A stretch of 64,000 nucleotides of DNA, taken from Sipunculus nudus. Its lineage: Eukaryota; Annelida; Sipuncula; Golfingiida; Sipunculidae. Location: positions 97,956,330-98,020,329 of the forward strand of contig CM049307.1 of the NCBI GenBank assembly GCA_026874595.1. Direction: 5' to 3'. The translations under genes and the position numbers were made by a program. Numbering within the stretch: the first letter of the stretch is position 1; every line of letters begins with the position of its first letter. Positions 6,735 to 60,400 of this stretch are shown in pieces. Under the pieces are notes generated by a model, which worked only from the letters and a program-made list of their open reading frames with translations, ran no database searches and was not told the DNA's origin.

Positions 6735-7146
6735 ACCGGCTTCTGTGGCTCAGGGGTAGAGTACAAGACTCAAAGACGTAATCGACAAGATCGTTATCAA
6801 AGGAGATCGTGGGTTCGAATCTCAGCTGATAGGGTGCGATTTTTTACGGTCGGCCCGTACACAGGGTGAGCGCTCTGCAGGCTTAATTGGCCATGTTTCA
6901 CTCAAAAACGACTGCGCCTTACGGGGGTTTCTCGGTGATATAACACAGGAATGGGAACGATTGCGAACCCAGGGCCCGCAGGTGCAGAAGTCACCGGGCC
7001 TGTTTGATGCCAGGATATAAAATGAGAGAAAGCATGCGATACTGCCCTGTCACGAAGTCTGAAACCGGAATGGAAATCGGCAGACGAACATAAATACATT
7101 GTTAAGTTAGCATAAATAAATTGAGGCGGTTACCTCCACAAAAAAG
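6735..7146 (+). mobile_element. tRNA-derived SINE, full-length copy
   Basis: The head carries an A box (TGGCTCAGGGGT, 6746-6757) and a B box (GGTTCGAATCTC, 6812-6823), so it derives from a tRNA with a widened A-B interval. The body contains GAGCGCTCTGCAGGCTTAAT and a segment around 'GGGCCCGCAGG'. The tail is 'GAGGCGGTTACCTCC' followed by A-rich sequence. A second copy with the same head, body and tail lies at 61535-61885, and a head-only copy lies at 57400-57500. Mobilisation by a non-LTR element is expected for the family. Confidence 0.85.
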
Positions 7147-8764: not shown

Positions 8765-10690
8765 ACCATGCAGTATCCTCAATCTTGGAGATTTTAATGT
8801 GCATTGGGGCAAAGTAGCAGTCCAGAGGCAGTCAGCTTGCATGGTCTTCTTGAGTCCACAGATTCTTTACAGCATGTGAGCAGCCCTACCCACACTAATG
8901 GCAATATCCTTGACCTAGTCATATCTCGCTCCTGTTATAATGTGATAGAATCTGTGAAAGTTGGGCCCCTGATCAGAGATCACAACATTGTGTATTGTAA
9001 TCTGAAACTGAAAGACTCACCACACTCGGGAAGCTTAGGTTTATTGATCAGTAGCGCATGAACTTAAAGAATCCACCCTGGTATCAGTGTCAGATAACCC
9101 GTTTTTCATATCTACACATCATCTACAATCAGACAGTTCTATCCTAGATAAGCATGCTCCTAAAAGATGTCACCATTACTGTTGAACCAAACTCTCCTTG
9201 GATAAATGGCACCATTTTTGAGGAAAAGAGAGAGCGCAGAATGTGTGAAACAGTGTGGAAATCAACTCGTCTTCATGTACATAGACAGACCTACACCAAC
9301 CAGAGGGATAAAGTTAATAAGTTGAATCTGAGTGCTAAAGTGAGTTACTGTCATGATAAGATCTCCAAAAGTGGTGATGACCAAAAGGCTCTATTTGGTA
9401 TCGTAAATGGCCTTTTGAGCAAACAAGCTAGAAAATTACAAAATTATCTTCGTCTCCACTAGTTCATCGATCAGATGACTTTTAACATTTTTTTTCTTGA
9501 CAAGATCAGTAAAACTCAAAACTCATGGTTTATTAAGTGCTACTAGTGTCAGTGTCCCATCATATGGACCATGGCGCCATAGTTCTTTTCAGGATGTCTT
9601 TGTCGTGATACCTGATGTGATCATAAAGGTCATTGTTAAGTCTCCATCAAAAACATTCACTCTTGACCCATGACCTAAATTGATGCTAAAGACACACTTA
9701 ATAACACTTGCACCGACAGTTTGTTTTATCGCTAACCAGTCGCTGTCGTCTGGGGTCATCCGTCCGAGTGGAAACATGCCTTGGTCACCCCCTCCTGAAG
9801 AAAACTACTCTTTACCCTTCAGCTCTCGGCAACTTTAGAACAGTATCAAATCTACCATTTCTTTCAAAGCTGTTGAAAGAATAGTGGCAAAGCAACTCAC
9901 AGGATACTTGAATGACAAAAATCTCTATCCAGCCTTTCAATTAGCCTACGGCCCCAACCACAGTGTGGAAACAGTCCTTCTTCATGTCCATTATGACATT
10001 CTGTGTGCCATCGATGAATACCAAGGTGTCATCCTCGTTTTGCTCGATTTATCTGCAGCGTTTGATACGATCTCTCACGACATTCTGCTTCAGCGCTTAC
10101 AAGTCAGATTTGGCATCACAGGCATGGTCCGTGAAAGGCCCACATTTTACCCCAGTGGCAGGTATCAGTCCATGGTCTACAATGGCGTTACCTCTTCCTC
10201 ACTACTTGTACCACACGGTGTGCCACGGGGATCTGTATTGGGGCCGATTCTCTTCTCCTTGTACACTAGCCTTATTTGTGATATCCAATTCCATCTGTAC
10301 GCAGACGACTCCCAGATTTACCTGGCTTTCAGTTTCAAAACCGATCCTTCTGTTCACTCAGCTATGGCCTCAGTTCAGTTGTGTATCACTGAAGTTGGTG
10401 AATGAATGGTGAGAAATAAACTGAAGCTAAATGGTGACAAGACGGAACTGATGATCCTCACGATATAGACTATGGACATTAGTGCTTCCTCTATCACAAC
10501 TAGTCCAACCATGCAAAATCTTGGTTGTTGGTTTGACCAGGTAGCAAAAATTGAGAAACATGTAAAGTTTGTGTGCAAAACTTGTTACTTCCACCTGCAC
10601 AAAGAGGCATCTTTGTTAACCTGACCCCCAGCATAAGGGACACAATTTGCAGAACGCTGCTATATGGCCGTACATCCCCTTCAAATACAA
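8765..10690 (+). pseudogene. Decayed L2/CR1-like non-LTR retrotransposon (endonuclease end and reverse transcriptase)
   Basis: Starts with an endonuclease block (GDFNVHW near 8790, then GN-LDLVI and RDH). A linker with 'PWINGTIFEEKRERRMCE' and 'DQKALFGIVNGLL' follows, then reverse transcriptase. In the latter 'AFQLAYGPNHSVETVLLHVH', 'LLDLSAAFDTISHDILLQRL', 'HGVPRGSVLGPILFSLYTS' and 'FHLYADDSQIYL' are intact, so the YADD catalytic box survives. Multiple frameshifts and stops lie between the blocks. The order and motifs fit the L2/CR1 group. The copy is 5'-truncated inside the endonuclease and lies in the sense orientation of the host gene, inside the antisense gypsy remnant. Confidence 0.85.
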
Positions 10691-22739: not shown

Positions 22740-23600
22740 TTGTTGGAATATACAAAAAAACGAGAGCACATGAAGAGTAGCTGGAGCTGATAGGTACCGA
22801 TTATTCTACTCTGGGTTACGAAAGGGTATATATAAAAAGGATGGCCCGTTTTTGTCCAATATATTGGAATATACGTAAATTTTAGGGATTTCACACTTTC
22901 AATGTCGATTTGTAAACTAGTAAAAATGTTATCATCTGTTTTGTGAGACCTAAAATAAAAGGATAGACGTAAATGTTGTGTGATTGGACATGTCAAAAGC
23001 TTTCGATGGAGTGTGATCTTTAACACTCTTAGCTAAAGCGGACTGGTATAAATGCACCTTATATGACTTATATAAGACAGAAACATTCAAATTAAATTGG
23101 ACAAGACCATGTTTTATGAAACCAGAGTGGTTATTGGGGCACTTGAGAACGCACAACGGTCGCAGAATAAAAAAAAAATGAAACTGAATGAAACGGAAAT
23201 CAAATGAGCACAGTTTAATAGGTAAAGAAAATTAAGAATTTTAAATGAAAATTGAAAATGAAATGCAGTGTTCTAAACGTTTATTTCTTTCACAAGAAAG
23301 TAATGCAAAATCTCTTGTGTTCTTGTGGCATAGCTTAAGAAAAAAAATGAACATCTTAAATAGTTTCAAAACAAAACAAAACTTATTCATTACGTAACTT
23401 CGGTTAAAACTCTCTATCCTGTATCATACGGATGTTATATTTGGAACGAAATAAGATAACTATTCCAAAAAGAGCAAGCGAAGAGTACCTGCAGTTTTCC
23501 ATTTATTTTTGGTCTGCATCTCATCCAAGCTTATTTTGGACTAGAAATGTATTTTTTTTTTCTTTCATCTACCAGGCAAAGTGAATGGAGAACCTTGGTT
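22740..23600 (+). pseudogene. Decayed non-LTR reverse transcriptase in a stalk unit
   Basis: Matches the family at 18.3 kb and 25.1 kb ('ACATGTCAAAAGCTTTCGAT', then the D-rich 'SKAFD' block) but with an internal deletion. From about 23060 it resumes with the 'AAATTGGACAAGA' region and the tail shared by the later units. Confidence 0.6.
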
Positions 23601-24001
23601 GATGACTGATTAAAGAAAAAGTAAGCAATAGAAATGGGGTTTTTTCTTCCTAACAGCGATTTACTTCCACCTCTTCTAAATTTACAACTGGGTCACCTAT
23701 GGTTTTTCAAAATTTTGTCCGTCGTCCACCCCTTTGTCGCTCCGTTAACAAAGCACAAATCGTGATCGTTTGACTCAGAAAATCAGACTTGTGTTACTAT
23801 TCTTGGCTGCAAAAATAAACATTTTGCACTAGGAACTAAAACTTAAACATTAAAAATGAACTGCATATGTAGCATTGTTACCATACAAAATTGAAGAAGA
23901 TCGGCCAAGCCAGTTCTAAAGAACTGTTGCGGACACCATGAAACAAATATACCTATTGTAATGTATGAATTTCATAAACATGATTTCATGTTTAATTTTA
24001 G

Positions 24002-24061
24002 TTGCCCCAACGACCACACCACCTACCACAGTGGCTGCAACCACAACTCCAGCATCAACTG
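24002..24061 (+). CDS. 60-bp Thr/Pro-rich stalk exon, unit 1
   Basis: The acceptor GTTTAATTTTAG and donor ACTG|GTAAAT bound an open phase-1 exon reading APTTTPPTTVAATTTPAST. It consists almost wholly of Thr, Pro, Ala and Val, as expected for an O-glycosylated stalk. Both splice sites are intact, so this copy should be used. The sister exons in units 2-4 differ by one to three codons. Confidence 0.75.
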
Positions 24062-24408
24062 GTAAATAAGATACCTGTCGTATTAAGCTCTAATGAAGCA
24101 CTCTCTGAGTCATGTTAATTGAATATGATCGGGTTTTCACCGTGTGGAGAAATATTTAGTAGTTTTAATGAAATGTAGTGAAAACATGCTTTGGAACACT
24201 TTTGCTTGTCGTAATTTTTCCACACCACTTGCTGGTTAATTATCAACGCAGGCAACGCCAACAATTACTTAAAGGGAACAGCAGTTCGTAAGTACTTAAC
24301 ATTTTTATTGTTCAGAAGGAGAAAGCAAAGGCAATTAAAATATCAGTTCTTTACACAAATCTCTTGAATGGTGTTCAATGATACATGATTTCTTGTATAT
24401 TATTGTCG

Positions 24409-24456
24409 TGGCCCCAACGACCATATTGCCTTCCACTGTGGCTCCAACCACAACTG
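24409..24456 (+). pseudogene. 48-bp stalk exon copy with lost acceptor, unit 1
   Basis: The exon body is open (APTTILPSTVAPTTT) and the donor GTGAGC is present. The three other units have TTTTTCAG or TTTTTTAG at the acceptor; here the sequence is TTGTCG with a net loss of two bases and no AG. The exon should be skipped or use a cryptic site. Confidence 0.7.
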
Positions 24457-25119
24457 GTGAGCAATATACCTGTCATATCAAGCTTTTGTAAAGCACTCTC
24501 TGATTTATGTCAATTGAAGAAGATCGGGTCTTCCCCATGTTGAGAAATATTCAGAAAATTGTGTACAATCGTTTAAAAACAGAACAAATCAGGTTTTTTC
24601 CGAACCCTTGGTTAAAACGTTTTTTCCTGATTCATGCATACTTAATATAAGTAAAGTATTAATTTAACGAACAAAATGGGAAGAACATGGATATTATGAT
24701 AATATATGGCATGTTTATTCGGAGATCTGTGCACTTAGAACAAATATGTTTCTGCTTCTATTAGCACACGAACGGGAAAGGGAATTCTAGAGATATGAAT
24801 AATTATTGGTTCATTCATCTTAAAATGTTAGTTAAATGTGTTTTTTATTTTCTGATTTACTTAACTCTGTTTGTTGGAATAAATAAAAGAAACCAAAAAA
24901 GAGCTGCCAAGCACACTGTGGGTAGCCGGAGCTGGTAGGGACCGAATATTCTGTTCTCGGTTACAAGCAGGCGGGTATATATACAAATGATGATCCTAAA
25001 ATTATTTTCAATATCGGCCTATATCTCTCCCGATTTGTGTCTCAAAATTTGCCAAGACAGCAAGATTTAAGTGTACGTAATGTTCTCCGAGAGCAAAGAA
25101 TGATTATAAAATTTTAGTG

Positions 25120-25330
25120 TGGATTTATAACAGGAGATTTCACATTGAATTAACTAGTTGAAATTTATCGTCTCTTCTGTGAGGCCTGAGGTTAGATGTA
25201 ACTTTTGTGGCTTGTGCCATGTCAAAAGCTTTCGAAAAAGTATGCTACAAAGCACTCTTAAATAAGCTAAAACGGGTTGGTATTAATCGGACTTTTCTTT
25301 TATGGGTAAAAGATTGCCAGCGATTTACTT
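25120..25330 (+). pseudogene. Truncated non-LTR reverse transcriptase, unit 1
   Basis: The + frame reads 'SKAFEKVCYKALLNKLKRVG' followed by INRTFLLWVKDC, the block that normally contains the first catalytic Asp (DlSKAFD); here it is Ala/Met before SKAFE. Everything from the template-grip region to the YADD box is deleted, and the tail resumes at a GCGATTTACTTCCACCT junction. The deletion is shared with unit 2. Confidence 0.75.
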
Positions 25331-25937
25331 CCACCTCTTCTAAATTTACAACTGGGTCACCTAAGTTTTGGCAAAACTTTGTCCGTCGATCGCCCTTTTG
25401 TCGCTCCGTAAACAAAGCGCAAGAGTACCTGCATTTTTCCATTATTTTTGGTCTGCATCTCATCCATGCTAATTTTGGACTGGAAATGTATATTTTTTTC
25501 TTGCATTTACCAGGCAAAGTGAAGGGAGAACCTTGGTTGATGACTGATTAAAGAAATAGTAGGCAATAGAAATGGGGTTTTCTTCCAAACAGCGATTTAC
25601 TTCCACCTTATCTAAATTTACAACTGGGTCACCTATGGTTTGGCAAAATTTTGTCCGTCGTCCGCCCCTTTGTCGCTCCGTTAACAAAGCACAAATCGTG
25701 ATTGTTTGACTTAGAAAATCAGACTTGTGTTACTATTCTTGGCTGCAAAAATAAACATTTTGCACTCAGAACTAAAACTTAAACATTAAAAATGAACTGC
25801 ATATGTAGCATTGTTACCTTACAAAATTGAAGAAGATCGGCCCAGCCAGTTCTAAAGAACTGTTGCGGACACCCTGAAACAAATATACCTATTGTAATGT
25901 ATGAATTTCATAAACATGATTTCATGTTTAATTTTAG

Positions 25938-25997
25938 TTGTCCCAACGACCACACCACCTACCACAGTGGCTGCAACCACAACTCCAGCATCAACTG
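25938..25997 (+). CDS. 60-bp Thr/Pro-rich stalk exon, unit 2
   Basis: Intact acceptor (TTTAATTTTAG) and donor (GTAAAT). It reads VPTTTPPTTVAATTTPAST in phase 1. It differs from unit 1 by one base in the first full codon (GTC for GCC). Confidence 0.75.
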
Positions 25998-26346
25998 GTA
26001 AATAAGATACCTGTCGTATTAAGCTCTAATGAAGCACTCTCTGAGTCATGTTAATTAAATATGATCGGGTTTTCACCGTGTGGAGAAATATTTAGTAGTT
26101 TTAATGAAATGTAGTGAAAACATGCTTTGGAACACTTTTGCTTGTCGTAATTTTTCCACACCACTTGCTGGTTAATTATCAACGCAGGCAACGCCAACAA
26201 TTACTTAAAGTGAACAGCAGTTCGCAAGTACTTAACATTTTTATTGTTCAGAAGGAGAAAGCAAAGGCAATTAAAATATCAGTTCTTTACACAAATCTCT
26301 TGAATGGTGTTCAATGATACATGATTTCTTGTATATTATTTTTCAG

Positions 26347-26394
26347 TGGCCCAAACGACCATATCGCCTTCCACTGTGGCTCCAACCACAACTG
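26347..26394 (+). CDS. 48-bp Thr/Pro-rich stalk exon, unit 2
   Basis: The acceptor TATTATTTTTCAG and donor ACTG|GTGAGC bound 48 bases, open in phase 1 as AQTTISPSTVAPTTT plus a split Gly codon. It lies 349 bases after the 60-bp exon. The peptide resembles a shortened form of the 60-bp exon peptide, so the two exon types probably share an origin. Confidence 0.75.
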
Positions 26395-27059
26395 GTGAGC
26401 AATATACCTGTCATATCAAGCTCTTGTAAAGCACTCTCTGATTTATGTCAATTGAAGAAGATCGGGTCTTCCCCATGTTGAGAAATATTCAGAAAATTGT
26501 GTACAATCGTTTAAAAACAGAACAAATCAGGTTTTTTCCGAACCCTTGGTTAAAACGTTTTTTCCTGATTCATGCATACTTAATATAAGTAAAGTATTAA
26601 TTTAACGAACAAAATGGGAAGAACATGGATATTATGATAATATATGGCATGTTTATTCGGAGATCTGTGCACTTAGAACAAATAGGTTTCTGCTTCTATT
26701 AGCACACGAACGGGAAAGGGAATTCTAGAGATATAAATAATTATTGGTTCATTCATCTTAAAATGTTAGTTAAATGTGTTTTTTATTTTCTGATTTACTT
26801 AACTCTGTTTGTTGGAATAAATAAAAGAAACCAAAAAAGAGCTGCCAAGCACACTGTGGGTAGCCGGAGCTGGTAGGGACCGAATATTCTGTTCTCGGTT
26901 ACAAGCAGGCGGGTATATATACAAATGATGATCCTAAAATTATTTTCAATATCGGCCTAAATCTCTCCCGATTTGTGTCTCAAAATTTGCCAAGACAGCA
27001 AGATTTAAGTGTACGTAATGATCTCCGAGAGCAAAGAATGATTATAAAATTTTAGTGTG

Positions 27060-27270
27060 GATTTATAACAGGAGATTTCACATTGAATTAACTAGTTGAA
27101 ATTTATCGTCTCTTCTGTGAGGCCTGAGGTTAGATGTAACTTTTGTGGCTTGTGCCATGTCAAAAGCTTTCGAAAAAGTATGCTACAAAGCACTCTTAAA
27201 TAAGCTAAAACGGGTTGGTATTAATCGGACTTTTCTTTTATGGGTAAAAGATTGCCAGCGATTTACTTCC
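27060..27270 (+). pseudogene. Truncated non-LTR reverse transcriptase, unit 2
   Basis: Copy of the unit 1 fragment, almost identical, with the same internal deletion. Confidence 0.75.
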
Positions 27271-27875
27271 ACCTCTTCTAAATTTACAACTGGGTCACCT
27301 AAGTTTTGGCAAAACTTTGTCCGTCGATCGCCCTTTTGTCGCTCCGTAAACAACGCGCAAGAGTACCTGCATTTTTCCATTATTTTTGGTCTGCATCTCA
27401 TCCATGCTAATTTTGGACTAGAAATGTATATTTTTTTCTTGCATTTACCAGGCAAAGTGAAGGGAGAACCTTGGTTGATGACTGATTAAAGAAATAGTAG
27501 GCAATAGAAATGGGGTTTTCTTCCAAACAGCGATTTACTTCCACCTTATCTAAATTTACAACTGGGTCACCTATGGTTTGGCAAAATTTTGTCCGTCGTC
27601 CGCCCCTTTGTCGCTCCGTTAACAAAGCACAAATCGTGATTGTTTGACTTAGAAAATCAGACTTGTGTTACTATTCTTGGCTGCAAAAATAAACATTTTG
27701 CACTCAGAACTAAAACTTAAACATTAAAAATGAACTGCATATGTAGCATTGTTACCTTACAAAATTGAAGAAGATCGGCCAAGCCAGTTCAAAAGAACTG
27801 TTGCGGACACCCTGAAACAAATATACCTATTGTAATGTATGAATTTCATAAACATGATTTCATGTTTAATTTTAG

Positions 27876-27935
27876 TTGTCCCAACGACCACACCACCTAC
27901 CACAGTGGCTGCAACCACAACTCCAGCATCAACTG
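27876..27935 (+). CDS. 60-bp Thr/Pro-rich stalk exon, unit 3
   Basis: Same sequence as the unit 2 exon, with intact acceptor and GTAAAT donor, phase 1. Reads VPTTTPPTTVAATTTPAST. Confidence 0.75.
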
Positions 27936-28284
27936 GTAAATAAGATACCTGTCGTATTAAGCTCTAATGAAGCACTCTCTGAGTCATGTTAATTGAATAT
28001 GATCGGGTTTTCACCGTGTGGAGAAATATTTAGTAGTTTTAATGAAATGTAGTGAAAACATGCTTTGGAACACTTTTGCTTGTCGTAATTTTTCCACACC
28101 ACTTGCTGGTTAATTATCAACGCAGGCAACGCCAACAATTACTTAAAGTGAACAGCAGTTCGCAAGTACTTAACATTTTTATTGTTCAGAAGGAGAAAGC
28201 AAAGGCAATTAAAATATCAGTTCTTTACCCAAATCTCTTGAATGGTGTTCAATGATACATGATTTCTTGTATATTATTTTTTAG

Positions 28285-28332
28285 TGGCCCAAACAACCAT
28301 ATCGCCTTCCACTGTGGCTCCAACCACAACTG
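28285..28332 (+). CDS. 48-bp Thr/Pro-rich stalk exon, unit 3
   Basis: The acceptor is TATTTTTTAG, the donor GTGAGC. Open in phase 1 as AQTTISPSTVAPTTT. One synonymous or near-synonymous change from unit 2. Confidence 0.75.
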
Positions 28333-28999
28333 GTGAGCAATATACCTGTCATATCAAGCTCTTGTAAAGCACTCTCTGATTTATGTCAATTGAGGAAGAT
28401 CGGGTCTTCCCCATGTTGAGAAATATTCAGAAAATTGTGTACCATTGTTTCAAAACAAAACAAATCAGGTTTTTTCCGAACCCTTGGTTAAAACGTTCCT
28501 TCCTGTTTCATGCATACTTAATATAAGTAAAGTATTAATTTAACGAACAAAATGGGAAGAACATGGATATTATGATAATGTACGGCATGTTTATTCGGAG
28601 ATCTGTGCACTTAGAACAAATAGGTTGCTGCTTCTATTAGCACACGAACGGGAAAGGGAATTCTAGAGATATGAATAATTATTGGTTCATTCATCTTAAA
28701 ATGTTAGTTAAATGTGTTTTTTATTTACTGATTTACTTAACTCTGTTTGTTTGAATACATAAAAGAAACCAAAAAAGAGCTGCCAAGCACACTGTGGGTA
28801 GCCGAAGCTGGTAGGGACCGAATATTCTGCTCGGTTACAAGCAGGCGGGTATATATACAAATGATGATCCTAAAATTATTTTCAATATCGGCCTATATCT
28901 CTCCCGATTTGTGTCTCAAAATTTGCCAAGAAAACAAGATTTAAGTGTACGTAATTTTCTCCGAGAGCAAAGAATGATTATAAAATTTTAGTGTGGATT

Positions 29000-29850
29000 T
29001 ATAACAGGAGATTTCAGAGAGAATAAACTAGTTGAAATTTATCGTCTCTTCTGTGAAGCCTGAGGTTAGATGTAACTTTTGTGGCTTGTGCCATGTCAAA
29101 AGCTTTCGAAAAGTATGCTATAAAGCACTCTTAAATAAGCTAAAACGGGTCGGTATTAATCGGACTTTTCTTTTATGGGTAAAAAATTGCCTGTAAAATA
29201 AGCATTAAAGAGTCGTTATCGGTGATGCGTGTTCTGACTGTGGAATTATACAGTGGGGAGTGTCATAGAGATGAGTCTTTTGACCAATTTTATTTTGGAA
29301 ATGTAGTAACGGAATAGGTGATATTGCGTCTCGTAATATATCACTGTTCTCAGACGGTAAAATATTCTTCGTTTACTCGTCCAATTCTGTATCAGAGTTG
29401 AAGAGTGATTTTCGTTCAATTGAGGCGTGGGAAGATCACTGGCTGGTGCTGTTTAATGCCGGCAAAAACTAAAGCTATTTACATTTCGCATAAACGCGAC
29501 CATTTTAATCAAACATTGACCTCCTCTGCTTTTAATCTGCGTTATACAAATAAACATACATATTCAATTGTACATTTTTGGCAGGATTTATCATGGTCTT
29601 CACACAATTTGCAAGTATGCAAGAAAGATTAAAAATGAACTAAGCATTGAAGAAATTTAAGTACCAACTTGATAGGCTAATATTAGAAACAGTAAATCAA
29701 TCCTTTGTATTGCGGGTATTATAATATGAAGGATTCATGTGGACTTTTATAAGACAGAAACATTCAAATTAAATTGGACAAGACCCAGTTTTATGAAACC
29801 AGAGTGGTTACCGGGGCACTTGAGAACGGACAACGGTCCAGAATTGAAAA
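29000..29850 (+). pseudogene. Decayed non-LTR reverse transcriptase, unit 3
   Basis: Contains the SKAFEK block, the 'SLSVMRVLTV' region, a GVP-like box, 'TLFSDGKIFFVYSS' (LFADDT position) and 'NAGKN-KAI', then the RT tail near 29750. Frame-broken throughout. Confidence 0.7.
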
Positions 29851-30675
29851 AAAATGAAACTGAATGAAACGGAAATCAAATGAGCACAGTTTAATAGGTA
29901 AAGAAAATTAAGAATTTTGAATGAAAATTGAAAATGAAATGCAGTGTTCTAAACGTTTATTTCTTTCACAAGAAAGTCATGCACAATGCATTATGTACTT
30001 GTGGCATAGCTAATGAAAAAAAATAGAACAAATTAAATAGTTTTAAAACAAAACAAAACTTATTCATTACGTAACTTCGGTTAAAACTTTCTATCCTGTA
30101 TCATACGGATGTTATATTTGGAACGAAATAAGATAACTATTCCAAAAAGAGCAAGCGAAGGGTACCTGCATTTTTCCATTATTTTTGGTCTGCATCTCAT
30201 CCAAGCTAATTTTGGACTAGAAAAGTAATTTTTTTATTTCATCTACCAGCCAAAGTGAATGTAGAACATTGGTTGATGACTGATTAAAGAAATAGTAAGC
30301 AATAGAAATGGGGTTTTCTTCCCAACAGCGATTTACTTCCACCTCTTCTAAATTTACAACTGGGTCACCTAAGGTTTGGCAAAATTTTGTCCGTCGTCCG
30401 CCCCTTTGTCGCTCCGTTAACAAAGCACAAATCGTGATCATTTGACTTAGAAAATCAGACGTGTGTTACTATTCTTGGCTGCAAAAACAATCTTTTTGCA
30501 CTCAGAACTAAAACTTAAACATTAAAAATGAACTGCATATGTAGCATTGTTACCATACAAAATTGAAGAAGATCGGCCCCGCCAGTTCTAAAGAACTGTT
30601 GCGGACACCCTGAAACAAATATACCTATTGTAATGTATGAATTTCATAAACATGATTTCATGTTTATTTGTTTAG

Positions 30676-30735
30676 TTGCCCCAACGACCACACCACCTAC
30701 CACAATGGCTGCAACCACAACTCCAGCATCAACTG
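30676..30735 (+). CDS. 60-bp Thr/Pro-rich stalk exon, unit 4
   Basis: The acceptor ATTTGTTTAG and donor GTAAAT bound an open phase-1 exon reading APTTTPPTTMAATTTPAST. It shares the ATG codon with the dead copy at 19989, so unit 4 and that older unit may be closer relatives here. Confidence 0.75.
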
Positions 30736-31082
30736 GTAAATAAGATACCTTCGTATTAAGCTCTAATGAAGCACTCTCTGAGTCATGTTAATTGAATATG
30801 ATCGGGTTTTCACCGTGTGGAGAAATATTTAGTAGTTTTAATGAAATGTAGTGAAAACATGCTTTGAAACACTTTTCTTGTCGTAATTTTTCCACACGAC
30901 TTGCAAGTTAATTATCAACGCAGGCAACGCCAACGATTACTTAAAGGGAACAGCAGTTCGTAAGTACTTAACATTTTTATTGTTCAAAAGGAGAAAGCAA
31001 AGGCAATTAAAATATCAGTTCTTTACACAATTCTCCTGAATGGTCTTCAGTGATACATTATATCATGTATATTATTTTTCAG

Positions 31083-31130
31083 TGGCCCCAACGACCATAT
31101 CGCCTTCCACTGTGGCTCCAACCACAACTG
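31083..31130 (+). CDS. 48-bp Thr/Pro-rich stalk exon, unit 4
   Basis: The acceptor TATTATTTTTCAG and the best donor of the set (ACTG|GTAAGC) bound an open phase-1 exon reading APTTISPSTVAPTTT. The next exon I can support is the first lectin-domain exon at 40001, joined in the same phase. Confidence 0.75.
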
Positions 31131-31779
31131 GTAAGCAATATACCTGTCATATCAAGGTCTTGTAAAGCACTCTCTGATTTGTTTCAATTGAAGAATATCG
31201 GGTCTTTCCCATGTTGAAAAATATTCAGAAAATTGTGTACAATCGTTTCAAAACAAAACAAATCAGTTTTTTTCCGAACCCTTGGTTAAAACGTTCCTTA
31301 CTGTTTCATTAATACTTAATATAAGTAAGGTATTAATTTAACGAACAAAATGGGAAGGACATGGATATTATCATAACATACGGCATTTTTATTCGGAGAT
31401 CTGTGCACTTAGAACAAATAGGTTGCTGCTTTCATTAGCACACGAACGGGAAAGGGAATTCTAGAGATATGAATAATTATTGGTTCATTTATCTTAAAAT
31501 GTTAGTTAAATGTGATTTTTATTTTCTGATTTACTTAACTCTGTTTGTTTGAATACATAAAAGAAACAAAAAAAGAGCTTCCAAGCACACTGTGGGTAGC
31601 CGGAGCTGGTAGGGACCGAATATTCTGTTCTCGGTTACAAGCAGGCGGGTATATATACAAATGATGATCCTTAAATTATTGTCAATATCGGCCTATATCT
31701 CTCAAAATTTGTGTCTCGAAATTTGCCGAGAAAGCAAGATTTAAGTGTACGTAATTTTCTCCAAGAATGATTATAAAAT

Positions 31780-32470
31780 TTCACTGTGGATTTATAACAG
31801 GAGATTTCACAGAGAATAAACTAGTTGAAATTTATCTTCTCTTCTGCGAGGCCTGGGGTTGGGTGTAACTTTTGTGGCTTTTGCCATGTGAAAAGCTTTC
31901 GAGAAAGTATGCTATAAAGCACTTTTAAATAAGCTAAAGAGGATTGGTATTGATGGGACTTTTCTTTGATGGTTTAAAAAATATCTTTGCAACACGCAAC
32001 AAGGATTCGTTATCCGGGAAGGGTATTCTTTAATGTTTTCATGTGGGCGAATTAGTGGCTGGTGATGTTCAATCCGGCAAAAACTAAAGGTATGTACATC
32101 TAGCATAGACCGACCATTTAAACCAGCTTTAACCTGAGTTGGTTTTGAATTGCCTTATCAAATATACAAAAATACATAGGTGTTAATTTTTGGCACGTTT
32201 TATCATGGTTTTGTCACGTTTCATAAGTATGCAACAAAGCTTGAAAGAGAATTAATGTATTGAAGAAATGGAAGTGCCCACTTGATAGGCTAACATTAGG
32301 AATAATGAAGAAATCCTCCGTTTTGCCTATATAAGAATATGGTAATATCATGTAGACTATTATAGGACAGACAGATTCTAATAAATTGGACAAGATCAAG
32401 TTATATGCAACCAGAGTTGTTACCGGGACAGTTTAAATAAAACTTATAATGATCCTATATTGTCTCGGCT
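31780..32470 (+). pseudogene. Decayed non-LTR reverse transcriptase, unit 4
   Basis: Frame-broken remnant of the same family with a separate internal deletion between the SKAF block and the NPAKTK block. Confidence 0.65.
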
Positions 32471-33018: not shown

Positions 33019-33782
33019 TGTTACGGAACCTAATATAAACAGATCACGAATGCGTGATGAACACAAATTCTGTAACGGAGATTAAAAAAAAGAGATTCTG
33101 TAAAACTAGGCAGCGTGAAATGTCTAGGGGAATGAATAAAGAAGTCAGTGTTTTTTTGTTAACAAATAACTATAATTTATTCTTATAACAACCCTATATT
33201 ACAATACACTAAATCAATACAATTATACAGTATAACAGGGGTATAACATCAACTCAATACAATTATACAGAAAAATAATGTGCACAATACCTGGATACAA
33301 ACACCGTAACAAGGATAAGTGTTTTAAATGTATACTTTCGAATGACCGTCCAGTGTAAAGCTCTTGCAACAACACAAAAAGCAAACTGAAGTCGAAACGC
33401 ATAAAATCCAGGAGAAAGTCTTAGAAAATGAATAATTGCCGCATTCGTCGAATTAGGTCCTAGAAACTGACACACGATTCTGCGTCCGTAGGACTCTGCT
33501 CTCTCTCTGCCCGTTCTAAAACCCACCCCCTTTATATACCTTAACATCTATAGCCGAGAATTTCGCACTTCTCGAACAGTCTTAAGGATCCTACAAAACA
33601 CAGTAAGCGCGCGTAAGCACTGTGTGTATCTCTACATACCAGGGCCATCACGTGACCTCGGCCAGGCGTTAAAACCTCTAGCCAGCACGACAACAAGAGT
33701 TCAACCAGTACAGATTAAACAAAAAGTGCAACAACAAAACGAGTTACGCCCGTGTCACACAAGAGAAGGAGCACCTATAACA
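33019..33782 (-). repeat. 3' LTR of the Gmr1-like element
   Basis: On the + strand it starts TGTTACGGAACCTAATATAA and ends GGAGCACCTATAACA. It contains an internal short repeat around 'AATACAATTATACAG' (33217 and 33257). Compared with the other LTR it shows scattered substitutions and indels, which indicates an old insertion. Confidence 0.9.
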
Positions 33783-33793
33783 CTCCCCCTCCT
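33783..33793 (-). other. Polypurine tract
   Basis: On the minus strand AGGAGGGGGAG directly precedes the 3' LTR, the expected place for priming plus-strand DNA synthesis. Confidence 0.75.
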
Positions 33794-33899
33794 GTAAGAA
33801 AAAAGAAAGTTTTCACGAAAAACTTTCTTTTTGCGATCCCAATTACTAAATCCTTACAACATTTAAAAAATCATCTTATTTACAACATTACATAAACAT

Positions 33900-34180
33900 C
33901 CTGTTTTCAACATTTCATAAACATCTCGATGAGCAATCAGCAAGTACATTGTCTTTCCCTTTAATGTGTATGATATCAAGATTGTAATCCTGTAAGAACA
34001 AACTCCATCTCAACAATCATAGATTTTTACACTTCAACTTGTTCATGAACGTTAGGGGATTGTGATCACTGAAGACCGTGATAGGCCTGACTGATGAAGT
34101 AACATAAATTTCAAAATGTTGCAACGCCAAAATCAAAGCCAAACATTCTTTTTCAATAATGGAGTAGTAAAAGGTACAGA
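33900..34180 (-). pseudogene. RNase H C-terminal part of the Gmr1-like element
   Basis: The minus frame shows 'IIEKECLALILALQHFEIYV', then 'VFSDHNPLTFMNKL', 'LRWSLFLQDYNLDIIHIKGK' and 'DNVLAD', the usual end of a gypsy RNase H. The N-terminal part, next to the reverse transcriptase at 34301, is shortened. Confidence 0.8.
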
Positions 34181-34300
34181 AAAGTCTGGAGCTGCTAAAA
34201 CTGGTGAACTTTGCAGAATTGCTTTCAAATTCTGAAATGATTTTTCACGCTGAACATTCCATACAAACTTTTGTTTCTTCTTTATCAAATTAGTCAAAGG

Positions 34301-35117
34301 TTAGGCTACAGCAGCAAAATTTGGACAAAACTTTTTGTAGTATCGAACCATTCCTAGGAAACGCATTATTTGCTTTTTGTTTTCTGGTCTAGGAAATGCA
34401 GAAATAGCACTTGTCTTAGCATCAACAGGTTTCACCTGACCCTGCCCTACGATATGACCCAAAAATGTTACTTGTCGTGACAAACTCAGATTTTAGTAAG
34501 TTGACGGTCAGACGTGCTTCACTGAGTCTTTCGAAGAGTTCGCGAAGAATTTGCAGATGTTTCTCCAAGGTGTCGCTGTACACGGTAAGGTCATCAATAT
34601 ATGCGTCGCAGCCCTGAATGTCCTTGACAACTATATGGATGAGGCGCTGGAACGTGGCTGGCGAGTTCTTCATGCCAAACGGCATAACCTCATACTGGTA
34701 CTGTTCTTGCGGCGTCAGAAATACGGACACTTCTTCCGCTCGATCTGTCAGCTGAACCTGCCAGAATCCTATTAGCAAGTCAAACTTGGAAACATATCTG
34801 GAGCTACAGACTCTATCAATACAATCATCGATCCTCGGAATCGGGAACGTGTCAGTCTTGGTGACAGAGTTCAGTTTTCGATAATCTGTGCACATACGGT
34901 AACTCCCATCAGGTTTTGGCATAAGAATACATGGTAAACTCCAGTAACTGTTACTAGGTTTAATAAAATCATTGTCAAGCAGATATTGAATCTCATCCTG
35001 TAGATACTTTTGTTTTTCTGGATTCAGTCTATATGGATGTTGCTTGACTGCGCCTGTCCCGCCAACATCGACGTCATGGCACAACAGGTTAGTTCGCGTT
35101 GGAATGTCACTAAACAA
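34301..35117 (-). pseudogene. Reverse transcriptase of the Gmr1-like element
   Basis: An open stretch of 231 codons (35117-34422) carries, in order, a primer-grip entry, 'LMPKPDGSYRMCTDYRKLN', 'VSKFDLLIGFWQVQL', 'VMPFGMKNSPATFQRLI' and the catalytic 'AYIDDL' (YIDD codons at about 34590-34601). A frameshift near 34480 moves the rest ('FLGHIVGQGQVKPV', 'FLGMVRYYKKFCPNFAAVA') into another frame. All core motifs are present, so the break is fairly recent relative to the rest of the element. Confidence 0.9.
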
Positions 35118-35199
35118 ATGTTCATAATTCCGCAGCAGGTTCTTGATATCTTGTTGTTGGTGTTCGGTAAGGTGTGACAGTTAGGCATCCAGGTTTTAA

Positions 35200-35690
35200 A
35201 GCACGTCTGAGCTTTTTAATGGTACTGTACCACACTGAATGTCTAAATCACACTTACAATCAGTATCTACTTTAACTGGGTCAGGGTCAGTTTTTACACA
35301 ATTAACAGCAGTAACATTTTGTACAACATCTGATGTGCTATTTCTGTCATAATATGGTTTCAACATGTTAAAATGGCACAGTTGTTTCTTTTTACGTCTA
35401 TCTGGTGTCAGCAGTATGTAACTTAAATCACTGACTTTCTTGTCAACAATGTAAGGACCAAAATACCTAGCTTGCAGAGGTATACCAGGGATGGGAAGTT
35501 AGGCAAGGACCTTTTCACCAGGCTCAAACATCCTACTTACAATGTGTTTGTCATACTTTGTTTTCATTTTACTTTGTGCAGATTTTAGATTTTACTTGCA
35601 ATCTCACAAGCATTGTAAAGTTTAGTGCGAAAGTCTGAGACATACTACAGTAAACTAAGAGAATCAGGATTTTCACACAAGAGTTTTTCT
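35200..35690 (-). pseudogene. Integrase-RT linker of the Gmr1-like element
   Basis: Frame-broken sequence with 'FLPIP'-like, 'Y-GPY-V' and 'DRRK-K-HFNMLKPYY'-like stretches on the minus strand, the region after integrase that carries a GPY/F-like domain in this group. Confidence 0.5.
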
Positions 35691-36551
35691 TAAAGCAGTT
35701 GCAATGGACCTCGAACGGAGTGTCCAAAAACTAGTTCAAAGGGACTGAAACCGAAGGACTCTTGAAAGGATTCTCTGACAGAAAACAGCAATAGGTGGAT
35801 TCCTTCATCCGAATCTTTCTGTGTGTCATAGCAATAAGTCCTGATCATGTTTTTTAATGTCTGGTGAAAACGCTCGAAGGCGCCCTGACTCTCAGGATGG
35901 TATGGCGAAGAGCTGTACTGTTTTATACCTAGCTCAAGCGTAACTTGTTTGAATAAGCCAGACATAAAATTAGACCCTTAATAAGATTGGACGGATTTTG
36001 GTAATGCAAAAAATGTAAAAAAAACTTGGTCAGAGCTTTGACAACACTTTTGGCATTAATTTTGCGCAATGGTATAGCCTCAGGGAACCTGGTAGATGCG
36101 CACATAATTGTCAGCAAGCATTCATGACCAAATTTTGTTTTGGGCAGTGATCGAACACAATCAACAATAATCCTACTGAATGGTTCCTCGAAAGCAGGAA
36201 TAGGCCTTAGTGGGGCCTTAGGAGGATTCTGATACATCAGGTGGTCGCTATTTACGCATAAGCACTCCATTTTGATATAGAAATTAACTGGGTTCTGTTA
36301 CAGTTCATCTTTAGAAACTGCCCTGGGAAACAAACATGAAATATAAGGGTCCTTATGCTTTTCCGCGATAAGTTCTTACCTTGAGAATGCTGCATCCTGT
36401 ACGGGCGAGTGATTAGACGAGTCACAAGAGACTCCCAGAGTGTTATTATCTGGACCATTATCCTCATGTGTGCTTTTCTTGGCCATAGATCTAGCACATG
36501 AAGGATACAAGCCTGGAATTTACTGACTTTCCGGATCAGTGTCCTGATCAA
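35690..36551 (-). pseudogene. Integrase of the Gmr1-like element
   Basis: The minus frames show 'KAPLRPIPAFEEPFSRIIVD' with the first catalytic Asp, 'CASTRFPEAIPLR', a damaged second-Asp region, and after a frameshift 'SPYHPESQGAFERFHQTLKN' with the catalytic Glu (GAFERF), then 'ESFGFSPFELVFGHSVRGPL'. It lies upstream of the reverse transcriptase on the coding strand, the reverse of the usual Ty3/gypsy order. Confidence 0.88.
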
Positions 36552-36559
36552 GTGACGGG

Positions 36560-36910
36560 TTTTCTGTCACTATTGGTACAGGCTGTAGTTTGTCACCTGC
36601 AACATCATTGCCTAGTAGCAACAGAATTCCCTAAAAGGGTAAAGTAGTTCTTATGCCCACAGGAATATTCCTAGAAATCAAATCTGATACAAAACCATCA
36701 TGTATGAATTGCTCAAATAACTCCATTTCAGAGTCAAGAGAGGAATCTACTACCTCAACCTCATCAAACAAGAACTGACATTGACAGTGTCAGTCATAAA
36801 CTGTTTAAGAGTCATCTAAGGAATCTGCTGACATCCTTTTTATCATCAAACTCCTCATGGGAGTGAATAGAGGAATTTTCCTCAGCAGAAACAAACTTTT
36901 GTTTGTAATA
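36560..36910 (-). pseudogene. Protease C-terminal region of the Gmr1-like element
   Basis: The minus frame reads 'FVSDLISRNIPVGIRTTLP' and 'GILLLLGNDVAG', the conserved stretch found after the aspartic protease in related fish elements. The active-site region further upstream is not readable. Confidence 0.55.
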
Positions 36911-37179
36911 AGAGACCCTGGCCTTATTTAGAGAATACTCCTCGCAGAAGTCTTGAGCTAGCCTTATTTAATTCCTCGTAGGAATCAACTGAAGTTTTTT
37001 TTCCCCGCAAGCTACGGATTCTTCCTTGGATTCAGACGGCATTGGGCCTCCGTAGCATCAAACTCTTTATCGGAGCCAATAAAGGAGTTGTAACCCTTAT
37101 CTACATGAAAAGAGCCTGGCTCTTGTACTATACTATGCATAGATTTTGAAACAAACCCAGAAGGTTTCTATTTGGTTTA

Positions 37180-38328
37180 TTCGCAGGTTTCCAGCAGTCA
37201 GATATTAGATGACCTTCCTTCTTGCAGTAATGACAGATTTTCTTTGAAAATGACTGGTCTTTGTTGGACTAAGACACAGTGGACGTGGACTGAGATGTTG
37301 CATAGACTTTGCTGAACTATCAGGACTACTCGTACTGGGTGACTGCGCTTTAAACTTCTTTTGACCATACTGATTTACATTCTTGTTTGTGAATGACTGG
37401 TTTGATTTGCTAGTAAAGGACATTTTGTGTGTCAATGAATAATCATCAGCTAATTGAGCAGGAATGTCAAGTGTTTCAGGAATTTTTTCATCGGGAAAAG
37501 TTCTAACATCTGCGTTAATGCAGCGCTTAAATTCTTCAAGCAAAATCAACTGGCGCAAATTGTCATAATCTTTCATTACATTTTTAGAACTTCACCGGCG
37601 ATCAAACAACTGCTCTTTTGTCCTAGCAAATTCGACGTAGGTCTGTTCTTTGCGTTTTTTTCCCAATTTCTAAATTTCTGGCGGTAAGCCTCTGGAACCA
37701 ACTCATAACCTTTCAGGATTAACCGTTTAACCAGGTCATAGTCTGCAGCAGCATCTACTGAAAGCTCTGTATAAATTTCTCTGGCCTTGCCAGTCAATAC
37801 ACTTTGTAACAGCATATTCTAATTTTCCTTAGGCCATTTTAAATTTTCAGCTACCTTCTCAAAGTGTAAGAAATATTTATCAATCTCTTTTTCTTGAAAA
37901 GTTGGGAAAAGTCTAATGTGTTAAGTAACATCAAAACTGTGAGTTGGGGCAGCACGTAGACTATATTCTAGTTTAAGTCTTTCTAATTCCAGTCGTTTTA
38001 ACTCAATTTCTTTGCTTTTCTAGTCTTTCTCTTTCTAACCTTTCTTTCCTCTCTTTTAATGTTAGCTCATGTTGCATTTTTCAACTTTTTTAAATTTTAA
38101 TTGCATAGCAAGACTGTCATTTTTTATGTTCCAACTACAGTCTCTTCAATTTAACCTTTGCTAATAAGATCTTGCATGATTTTAGCAATGATATCAGGCT
38201 TTCTCAAAGCTTTTTTTCACACTTAGCCCTAAGTGTTGTCCCAAACGCAACAACTTTTCTTTTGACAACTGTTCAAGTTGATCAGGGTCGGGATCGTCAA
38301 CAAATGACTCAGGTTTGAAATCTGCCAT
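37180..38328 (-). pseudogene. Gag of the Gmr1-like element
   Basis: Starts with ATG at 38328 (MADFKPESFVDDPDPDQLEQ, then LSKEKLLRLGQHLG). It contains a capsid-like block 'LVPEAYRQKFRNWEK' near 37690 and 'LLEEFKRCINADVR' near 37540, and ends in a zinc knuckle C-x2-C-x4-H-x4-C (about 37190-37235) in a shifted frame. The capsid block resembles the SCAN-like gag of this element class. Several frameshifts and stops break it. Confidence 0.8.
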
Positions 38329-38540
38329 GTTAAGATGTCAAAACAATAATAAAAATACACTGAGAAAAATCCTGTAAGCAATGTAAAGATGTCATGTTAA
38401 GATGTCAAAACAATAACAAAAAGCCACTGAGATAAATCCTGTAAACAATATACTGTAAACAATATGTAATATTGTAAACAAAGTATAATAAAACAATGTG
38501 TCCAGGTCAAGACCTAATAAATTTAAAAAACAATTAAGCA

Positions 38541-38555
38541 ACCCGGACGAGCCCC
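38541..38555 (-). other. Primer binding site, tRNA-Pro-like
   Basis: On the minus strand GGGGCTCGTCCGGGT lies 8 bases inside the 5' LTR. It matches the complement of the 3' end of tRNA-Pro, as used by murine leukaemia virus and many gypsy elements, apart from the CCA-pairing bases. Confidence 0.7.
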
Positions 38556-38563
38556 TAATTTTA

Positions 38564-39337
38564 TGTTACGGAACCTAATATAAACAGATCACGTATGCGT
38601 GATGAACACACATTCTGTAACGGAGATTAAAAAAATCAGATTCTGTAACACTAGCCAGCGTGAAATGTCTAGGGGAATGAATAAAGAAGTCAGTGATTTT
38701 TGTTCACAAATATATAACTATAATTTATTTTTAAAACAACCCTAACACTAAACCAATAGAATTATACAGTAAAACAGCGGTATAACAACACCTTAATACA
38801 ATGATACAGAAAATAATGTGTACAAAACCTGGATGCCAACACCGTCACAAGGATAAGTTCTTTAAATGTATACTCTCGAAGAATGACAGTCCAGTGTAAA
38901 GCTCTTGCAACAACCCAGAAAGCCAACTGAAATCCAAATACATAAAATCCAGGATAAAGTCTTAGAAAATGTATAATTGCCGCATTCGTCGAATAAGGTC
39001 CTAGAAACTGACACACGCTTCTGCGTCGCTGGAATCTGCTCTGCTCTCTCCCGTTCTAAAAACAGCCCCTTTATATACCTTCACACCTCAAGCCGAGGAT
39101 TTTCCACTTCTCGAAAAGTCTTCAGGATCCTACACAACACAGTAAGCACGCGTTTCAGGAATTCTATAGAAAAACAGCGCTGTGTGTATCTCTACATACC
39201 AGGGTCATCACGTGACCTCGGCCAGGCGTGAAAACCCCCAGCCAGCATGACAACGAGAGTTCAACCAGTACGGATTAAACATAAAGTGCAACAACAACAC
39301 GAGTTACGCCCGTGTAAAAAAAGGAGCACCTATGACA
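38564..39337 (-). repeat. 5' LTR of the Gmr1-like element
   Basis: 774 bp, starting TGTTACGGAACCTAATATAA and ending GGAGCACCTATGACA on the + strand. Contains a short insertion near 39155-39180 compared with the other LTR. Confidence 0.9.
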
Positions 39338-53018: not shown

Positions 53019-53032
53019 TTCCAGTCCCATAG

Positions 53033-53189
53033 TGTTACGGGGTGACATAAAAGCAGACCGAACTGTCACGTTAGTGAAGCTTGCTTTGCTAGCGAAGCGG
53101 TTGGTTCGCCGGACTTGTGCGCCACCGACCTGGGTTCGACTCCCGGATCCGCCCAGGATTTTTCCTCCCAACAATTTGCCTTCGTAACA
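53033..53189 (+). repeat. TRIM left terminal repeat with A and B boxes
   Basis: A box TAGCGAAGCGGT at 53090-53101 (11 of 12 to consensus) and B box GGTTCGACTCC at 53133-53143. Between them 'GCCGGACTTGTGCGCC' resembles a decayed anticodon arm with TGT, so the source may be a threonine tRNA. No acceptor stem can be folded. Confidence 0.8.
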
Positions 53190-53193
53190 AAAT

Positions 53194-53209
53194 TGGGGCT
53201 TGTCCGACG
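53194..53209 (+). other. Primer binding site of the TRIM
   Basis: TGGGGCTTGTCCGACG starts 4 bases inside the left repeat. It has the TGG that pairs with the tRNA CCA end and resembles the tRNA-Pro site of the Gmr1-like element in this window. Confidence 0.65.
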
Positions 53210-53309
53210 TGACGGTAAAACTTTGTGGTTCAGGGAATCAGCTCACCAAAGTGTGACTTCTGGGATAAATAGTCTTGTTCTGATAGCAGAACGCTCTTAG
53301 GAGGGGCTG

Positions 53310-53453
53310 TGTTACGGGGTGACATAAAGCGGACCGAACTGTCTCGCTAGTGAAGCTTGCTTTTCTAGGGAAGTGGTTGGGACGCCGGACTTGTACGCCA
53401 CCGACCTGGGTTCGACTCCCAGATCGGCCCCTGAATAATTTGTCTTCGTAACA
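53310..53453 (+). repeat. TRIM right terminal repeat with A and B boxes
   Basis: A box TAGGGAAGTGGT at 53366-53377 and B box GGTTCGACTCC at 53409-53419. It is 13 bases shorter than the left repeat because of deletions near its 3' end. Confidence 0.8.
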
Positions 53454-53459
53454 ATAGGC

Positions 53460-57506: not shown

Positions 57507-57830
57507 CGAGAGTTTACATTTAAAGACTTATCGTGGTGACTGTATTGGTATTCAGGTAATGTACCATTATCTTTCTGTGTGATTTTATTGACTTGTTGCT
57601 ATAACGCTGTTTTTTTACTGTATAATTGTATTGATTTAGTGTATTGCATTGTTAGGGTTGTTTTAAGAATAAATTATAGTTATTTGTTAACATAAAACCA
57701 CTGACTTCTTTATTCATTCCCCTAGACATTTCCCGCTGCCTAGTGATACAGAATCTGATTTTTTTTATCTCCGTTACAGAATTTGTGTTCATCACGCATA
57801 CGCGATCTGTTTATATTAGGTTCCGTAACA
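57507..57830 (+). mobile_element. 3' part of a Gmr1-like LTR
   Basis: Matches the LTR of the 33.0-39.3 kb element in the opposite orientation, ending TTTATATTAGGTTCCGTAACA. It covers about the last 320 bases of the LTR. The 5' part is missing at the junction with the SINE head. No internal sequence follows. Confidence 0.85.
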
Positions 57831-57839
57831 CTATATAAA

Positions 57840-59084: not shown

Positions 59085-60400
59085 ACTGGACCTAAGACTT
59101 ATAAATATATTACATGGAGTTTCACGATAATCACCTTGGAAACCTGAATTTACGGCGCTACGACCTATTTAATTTTTAGCTATGGAGTTCGTTAGTACCC
59201 TCCGGAAAAAATGAGAACAATTATACAGCACAAAGGCTATAGTATCTGAAAAAAATAATACATTGCCTTGATTCTTGACAAGCATATTGATTATGAAGCG
59301 TTTAATCAGCTCATGAAGGCAGTTGGCATCCCCCTTTTTTTACTATACGTCATCTTAGCTATACGATCACCCTTTGTCCGGCGTCCGTCCTGCGGTCTGG
59401 CGTTCGTCCGTTAACAGGACGCAAATCGTAACCGTCAGACCAAGCAACTTCTACTTGTACATCTACGGAAGTTTATTAATGTTCTCCTCGGAAACTTGAA
59501 ATTAAGTCTCTGTTACCCATATCCTCCGAGCTATTGGGCACGTACGTACCCCCAAGAACAATTTTTTTTAATTATACAGAAGCACCAGTATTTGAATAAC
59601 TATTGCATTGATAGGTATGATTCTTTGCATGTACATTGATCATTGAGTGTTTCATCACTTCCTGTAGACTGTATTCTTCTTTCGAATTTTTATGCATTTG
59701 TTCTCTAATTTTGAGACCCTTAAAGATACGATCACTTGTTAACAGGGCACCAATCGCAACCAATAGACCTAGAATATTCTTGATCGACATCCAGAAAGGT
59801 CCACAAAAAGTCTCCTTCGAAACTTGTTAATTAGGTCTCTGTTACCAATATCCCCTGAGCTATGAGGCTCGGAAGTACCCCCAGAACAGTTAAAAAATTA
59901 AACCAAGGCAAGGTACAAATCTTAACCGTTAGACCTAGAATTTTTTGATTTGTCATCAAGGGAGGTCCATGAAAGGTCTTCTTTGAAACCTGAAAGTAGG
60001 TCACTGTAACCAATATCCTCCTGGCTATGAGGATCAGATATAACCCCCAGTTAAAATGAAAATTTAATACCAAAGCAGGGCACAAACCATAACTGTTGGA
60101 CCTAGAATCTTCTATTTTGTCATCAAGGGAGGTCCATGAAAGGTCTTCTTTGAAACCTAAAATTAGGTCTCCGTTACCCATATCCTTTGACCTCGGGGGC
60201 TCAGAAATACCCCCAGAAGTATTGAAACATAAACACCAAAGCAGGGCACAAATCATAACCGTTTGACCTAGACTTTTCTTATTTGTCATCTAGGGAGGTC
60301 CAGGAAAATCTCCATGGAAACCTGAAATTATGTCTCTGCTTCCCATATTATCTAAGCTATTGGGTATGTTTGAGCCCAATAGTAATAAAGCAAAATAGAC
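59085..60400. repeat. Satellite-like tandem array, about 167-bp period
   Basis: The landmark CCTAGAA (or CCTAGAC) recurs at 59767, 59934, 60101 and 60267, a period of 166-167. Each unit also has 'GGGAGGTCCA', 'GAAACCTGAAA', 'TTACCCATATCC' and 'GGCTC--AAGTACCCCC'. The left part (59085-59760) shows a longer form of about 330 bases in which every second unit is diverged or replaced. Confidence 0.8.

Follow-up and report, generated by a model that had tools for sequence, protein, structure and literature searches.

An old, multi-copy Helenus-like TRIM family with predicted polymerase III boxes in its long terminal repeats in Sipunculus nudus

Helenus (TRIMp3) elements are TRIMs that carry tRNA-derived sequence in their LTRs, and they form the tRNA counterpart of Cassandra (Kojima 2024, PMC10886601). 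They are described from six animal phyla, with 51 described families in bivalves, and in animals they are flanked by 4-bp target duplications; tRNA-Pro is among the primers of the bivalve families, Gypsy elements are named as the likely helper, and insertion of a SINE into an LTR is the suggested origin (PMC10886601). The tRNA similarity was detected there with Censor and tRNAscan-SE, and 75% identity and coverage serve as the family criterion (PMC10886601). The Cassandra transcript is described as running from the 5S part of its left LTR to that of its right LTR (PMC10886601), with read-through of intervening LTRs (PMC7215508). Among other animal TRIMs, biv-TRIM has LTRs of 202–218 bp, a core of 77–80 bp and the purine tract GGGGAGA (PMC6934838), and the ant element PbTRIM has 4-bp duplications, most often ATAT, and a tRNA primer site (PMC3532108).

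The window analyzed here is a stretch of 64,000 nucleotides from Sipunculus nudus (contig CM049307.1, positions 97,956,330 to 98,020,329). It contains a 421-bp gene-less element at 53033–53453, with LTRs of 157 and 144 bp around a 120-bp core, and a Gypsy-type element, with the following features:

33019–39337, minus strand: Gypsy-type element with broken frames, an RVT_1 domain and an LTR pair
53029–53032, unstranded: left target site duplication (ATAG), read from the flanks
53033–53189, plus strand: 5′ LTR, 157 bp, TGTTACG...CGTAACA; other copies have the same ends
53090–53100, plus strand: A box TAGCGAAGCGG in the first LTR; pattern in 111/142 LTR copies
53133–53143, plus strand: B box GGTTCGACTCC in the first LTR; exact pattern in 80/142 LTR copies
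53159–53163, plus strand: TTTTT run, putative pol III terminator, 15 nt past the B box
53190–53309, plus strand: internal region (core), 120 bp
53193–53208, plus strand: primer binding site, tRNA-Pro-like, 12/16 to an assumed tRNA-Pro end
53299–53306, plus strand: purine tract AGGAGGGG ahead of the second LTR, from direct reading
53310–53453, plus strand: 3′ LTR, 144 bp, from alignment with the first LTR
53366–53376, plus strand: A-box-like TAGGGAAGTGG in the second LTR, one mismatch, from alignment
53409–53419, plus strand: exact B box in the second LTR
53454–53457, unstranded: right target site duplication (ATAG), read from the flanks

The two LTRs are identical at 130 of 144 aligned bases, with a further 13 gap columns, and each has a perfect 7-bp inverted end, starting with TGTTACG and finishing with CGTAACA. 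The flanks read CCCATAG on the left and ATAGGCAA on the right, which gives ATAG as the target site duplication. The direct terminal repeats, the perfect ATAG duplication and the purine tract are all present as the initial annotation had described them. It had also placed an A-box-like element and an exact B box in each repeat: the B box is exact in both, whereas the A box is complete only in the first LTR, where the pattern TRGYNNARNNG at 53090 lies 43 nt from the B box GGTTCGANTCC at 53133. In the second LTR, TAGGGAAGTGG at 53366 has one mismatch to the pattern and the exact B box begins at 53409; past it lies a 12-bp loss that is absent from the 17 two-LTR elements compared. Exact B boxes occur twice in the whole window on both strands, both times inside the LTRs of the element, and 2 Mb of random sequence matched to the window in dinucleotide composition contained no A box paired with an exact B box. 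With the looser B pattern GWTCRANNC, 0.32 pairs with an A box are expected per window (both strands) and one other pair is found, at position 6746, so that by this pattern the pair is less special in the window. A blastn search found no second copy of the element inside the window.

At 421 bp, with two LTRs and a short gene-less core, the element has the general build of Helenus, a TRIM of less than 1000 bp. Further likenesses are the tRNA-like A and B boxes in the LTRs, here 43 nt apart with GGTTC and YGG motifs present; the primer site, judged here against an assumed tRNA end, and the purine tract; the 4-bp duplications of animal members, found here in 39/54 complete-ended copies; the tRNA-Pro primer of some bivalve families and Gypsy as the likely helper; and tandem arrays, reported there for one fish family (PMC10886601). 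Unlike the usual TRGCY of Helenus, the A box here has G as its fifth base and shares TRGC only, and neither an LTR terminator nor mixed LTR pairs are among the Helenus features described in the cited sections of that paper (PMC10886601). Judged by the paper's description, the element appears to fit Helenus and, as that type is already published, would be a new member of it, or an uncompared copy. The TRIM with pol III-like boxes in its LTRs that the initial annotation proposed is multi-copy and flanked by 4-bp duplications, but its kind is not new, Helenus having been named in 2024.

Cassandra has a pol III promoter and terminator within its LTRs and forms tandem LTR-core arrays (PMC7215508); the family described here has such arrays too, and its promoter and terminator in the LTRs are predicted. 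However, Cassandra is 5S-derived and from plants, and Rfam scans gave no 5S rRNA match in the LTRs of the element; the units of its arrays are reported in the cited part of that work as alike (PMC7215508), whereas here the units of one array often differ. The animal biv-TRIM likewise forms tandem arrays, but a tRNA part is not among its features as described in the cited sections (PMC6934838), and its dimensions do not match the LTRs of 157 and 144 bp, the core of 120 bp and the tract AGGAGGGG found here. PbTRIM resembles the element in its duplications and tRNA primer site, but the primer is tRNA-Leu and the cited sections do not mention a pol III promoter in its LTRs (PMC3532108).

Neither ARAGORN at normal settings nor Rfam at gathering scores finds a tRNA gene in the LTRs. 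With a lowered threshold ARAGORN makes weak calls only, on both strands, and the highest-scoring Rfam hits, to the tRNA-like mascRNA family, stay below threshold at 21.8 and 14.1 bits versus 42.5. The tRNA-like part of the LTR is thus degenerate and not recognizable as a tRNA gene in these scans. Primer sites were scored as the best of 20 offsets against assumed tRNA ends for Pro, Trp, Lys, Leu, Ser and His. In line with the tRNA-Pro-like site of the initial annotation, tRNA-Pro gives the best match, at 12/16, but Trp is nearly as good at 11/17, with Lys, Leu, Ser and His at 7–9 of 12–16. Because the Trp score is close and a tRNA-Pro score of at least 12/16 occurs at six places on the two strands of the window, including the primer sites of the element and of the Gypsy, tRNA-Pro is the likely rather than the proven primer.

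The Gypsy-type element has LTRs at 33019–33782 and 38564–39337 that are ~85% identical, an RVT_1 domain with a Pfam E value of 3.1e-34, and a primer site, on the minus strand from 38557, that matches the assumed tRNA-Pro end at 15/16. Two bases into the Gypsy core the sequence reads AAATTAGGGGCTCGTCCG, and the TRIM core starts with AAATTGGGGCTTGTCCG; the local score of the core starts is 24, which was equalled but not exceeded in 300 shuffles (maximum 24, mean 16.4). Against the TRIM, the purine-tract side of this Gypsy scores no higher than shuffles do (17 versus a mean of 16.7), and the LTRs of the two elements share short stretches only, with scores of 15–18 given here without a shuffle control. 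This Gypsy could be an example of the kind of helper that might serve the TRIM, and is put forward as a putative example rather than as the identity of the helper. A partial copy of the Gypsy LTR lies at 57507–57836. Elsewhere the window contains a reverse transcriptase fragment at 9839–10405 on the plus strand (RVT_1, E 1.1e-14), perhaps of a non-LTR element; a large tandem duplication at 23065–31978 with units of ~1.9 kb that are 93–98% identical, including two near-identical 122-aa frames at 25183 and 27121, the first of which was scanned and has no Pfam match; and a 166-bp tandem repeat of 3.6 copies at 59743–60338.

A search of the host assembly (1,426,538,692 bp) listed 52 matches from the 40 scored of 3055 first-look candidates, and a core-only search listed 40 matches from the 40 scored of 1114 candidates. 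Since candidates are not confirmed copies, these counts are lower bounds and not a census; the family has at least dozens of copies. Further counts refer to 74 distinct loci, L001–L086 minus six repeats or overlaps and six pieces fetched otherwise. A perfect 4-bp duplication is present at 40 of the 74 loci. Among the 54 copies with both ends complete, 39 have it at the expected ends, against about 4% in controls with a shifted boundary (47/1296) or across loci (110/2862), which bears out the expectation of many genome copies with 4-bp duplications at the predicted TG...CA ends. When copies with all-A/T 8-base flanks on both sides are left out, 35/48 are duplicated, versus 11/1152 in the control. 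No pair of duplication-bearing loci has 200-base flanks in common, and their insertions are therefore separate. Among loci without a duplication, L069 and L076 share flanks on both sides, and flanks are partly shared in L032, L044, L059, L081 and L083, and between L048 and L075. The duplications are composed of A and T only in 13/40, with ATAT the commonest (n = 7). Five of the 40 duplications belong to insertions in (AT)n repeats, with AT-dinucleotide flanks on both sides (L019, L024, L057, L079 and L086). Eleven further places, kept outside the main counts, include five with a 4-bp duplication, and the flanks of two of them, L088 and L094, are identical.

Complete two-LTR copies (n = 37) are 389–447 bp long. 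Two or more LTR pieces are present in 73/74 loci, every locus having been found with a core-containing query; three LTR matches in the fetched stretches have no adjoining core and are at most candidate solo LTRs. Measured against the most frequent letter of each column, LTR copies diverge by a mean of 6.9% (range 2.6–15.4%). No young copies are among those scored, and a copy with two LTRs of the Y haplotype defined below, used as a query, has best other matches of 94%. The element in the window is an old copy of a multi-copy TRIM family. A pattern scan of viral contigs gave 0 matches.

Of the 142 complete LTR copies, 111 show the A-box pattern, 80 have an exact B box, and 112 have T4 or longer within the LTR past the B box (123 when counted by alignment columns); A box, B-box core and T4 occur jointly in 68. 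The layout is constant: the A-to-B spacing is 43 nt in 60 of the 67 LTR copies with both boxes, and the T run starts 15 nt past the exact B box in 62/64. From its sequence and position, the T4–T5 run downstream of the B box is likely a pol III terminator. Within the family, conservation is not clearly higher in the boxes than in the rest of the LTR, a pattern that dead copies would show. By linked sites between LTR positions 98 and 147, the LTRs sort into the main haplotypes X, Y and Z and a minor one, W, with 5/142 LTRs, including the right LTR of the window copy, unclassified. The boxes are maintained from one haplotype to another, and the single common B-box difference falls at LTR position 108, a degenerate position that is free to vary, with C in 43/50 X and 54/61 Y and A in 21/22 Z. 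Recurrent losses of ~20–60 bp with differing breakpoints are seen at LTR positions ~30–60, just upstream of or across the A box, in L032, L035, L042, L056, L058, L037 and L041. A bias of these losses (20–30 bp; several right LTRs) toward one side was considered and dropped, as the left LTRs of L037 and L041 have lost sequence too.

Haplotypes are often mixed within an element. The 34 two-LTR elements in which each LTR could be assigned to a haplotype divide evenly into 17 concordant and 17 discordant ones. Concordance counted before L004 was reassigned (16/34) compares with 11.3 by permutation and was reached in 245/5000 shuffles; in the 24 elements with duplications it is 11 versus 8.3 permuted (reached in 662/5000, not significant), the other 13 being discordant. 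Over 41 elements including arrays, the first and last LTRs agree at polymorphic sites with a frequency of 0.683 versus 0.568 permuted (0/5000), which indicates some co-inheritance of LTR pairs, as LTR replication predicts. An LTR's own partner is its nearest neighbour for 10/68 LTRs, with a median rank of 41.5 of 139. Over positions 1–126, concordant elements have an own-pair identity of 0.919, compared with 0.910 for different elements that share a haplotype; for discordant elements it is 0.896, compared with 0.889 between different haplotypes. Most haplotyped elements were found with an LTR-containing query, which may bias haplotypes; those found by the core alone (n = 11) comprise 6 concordant and 5 discordant, and the two scorable two-LTR duplicated elements among the 11 later core-found places are L092, concordant, and L093, discordant. 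No single site differs between left and right LTRs at p < 0.001 (17 elements). Tandem LTR-core arrays with three to five LTRs (L013, L051, L070 and others) also occur, some within one 4-bp duplication. A duplication flanks 11 of the 17 loci that are at least 600 bp long and contain three or more LTRs; 6 of these 11 are mixed and 5 uniform. The mixed duplicated arrays are L006, L009, L013, L023, L070 and L086, two of the six with one unclassified LTR. L057 and L086 sit in AT repeats, where a chance duplication is possible.

We think it probable that this is an old Helenus-type, tRNA-headed TRIM family that multiplied through pol III transcription, a leaky terminator and a Gypsy helper, these three elements of the life cycle being what we infer. 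Transcription by RNA polymerase III would begin in the left LTR, directly ahead of the A box. The T4–T5 run would act as a leaky terminator that the polymerase reads through on the left and obeys on the right, and the tRNA-like segment would thereby become the R region of a short genomic RNA of about 360 nt. Particle, reverse transcriptase and integrase would be supplied in trans by a Gypsy with a tRNA-Pro-type primer, and integration would create the 4-bp duplications. Present in both LTRs, the T run raises the difficulty known from a poly(A) signal in R: it has to be ignored on the left but recognized on the right. The model is favoured by separate insertions with exact ends and 4-bp duplications, by the constant box spacing and T-run position, by a common B-box difference confined to the degenerate position, by the likeness of the Gypsy and TRIM core starts, and by the reported course of the Cassandra transcript (PMC10886601). 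An efficient terminator in the left LTR would, however, halt pol III short of the core. The decay of the copies, with the exact B box in 80/142 LTRs only, also counts against the model, as do boxes not clearly more conserved than other LTR parts, the purine-tract side and the LTRs of the Gypsy, and the many discordant LTR pairs. The alternative, which excludes this model and which we hold possible but rather unlikely, is that the boxes are a passive relic of a SINE once inserted in an LTR. In that case pol II, or read-through from outside, would produce the genomic RNA, and the product of pol III would be at most a short tRNA-like transcript stopping at the T run. The T4 or longer directly past the tRNA-like part in 112/142 LTRs would suit such a relic, as would the negative tRNA results of ARAGORN (normal settings) and Rfam (gathering scores), and boxes not clearly more conserved than other LTR parts within the family. 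Yet X, Y and Z differ around the boxes and in each of them some copies still have both boxes and the T run, and the same layout in Cassandra is reportedly transcribed from the 5S part across the element (PMC10886601).

The tRNA-like A and B boxes would also suit a SINE-type element copied by a LINE, its second LTR a chance tandem copy. We regard this as having next to no chance of being right, given the fixed 4-bp duplications at inverted TG..CA ends, tested against controls, the primer site and purine tract in place, and the two or more LTR pieces in 73/74 loci (all found with core-containing queries). A DNA transposon or plain segmental copying would move the unit without making both LTRs anew, as the small share of LTRs nearest to their own partner (10/68) might suggest. 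This too is very improbable: each of X, Y and Z is found in left as well as right LTRs, without side-specific clades in 34 elements, so left and right LTRs do not form lineages of their own; the primer site and the purine tract have been retained; and the duplications vary between copies while the flanks of duplicated copies are unrelated. Plain LTR replication alone, however, does not predict that single insertions often have LTRs of unlike haplotype. One of two readings of the discordant pairs is gene conversion between copies after insertion, and conversion in LTR pairs has been inferred in plants (PMC7251063). The other, which we offer only tentatively, is that several short RNAs of different members were co-packaged and joined during reverse transcription, so that mixed LTRs and arrays would arise at birth within one 4-bp duplication. 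Template switching has been proposed for Cassandra arrays, in which, in the cited part of that work, the authors saw no unit differences (PMC7215508). Linkage of core variants to the left or right LTR haplotype (0/8 sites below p = 0.05) did not separate gene conversion from template mixing.

In one large genome, the family serves to check the Helenus type independently, and adds to it a putative terminator in the LTR, a Gypsy with a similar primer site in the same window, and mixed LTR pairs and arrays. The frequent mixing of LTRs is the only part that may be new. Mixed pairs and arrays bear on the question raised by Cassandra arrays, that is, whether they form by chromosomal recombination or by template switching in the particle (PMC7215508).
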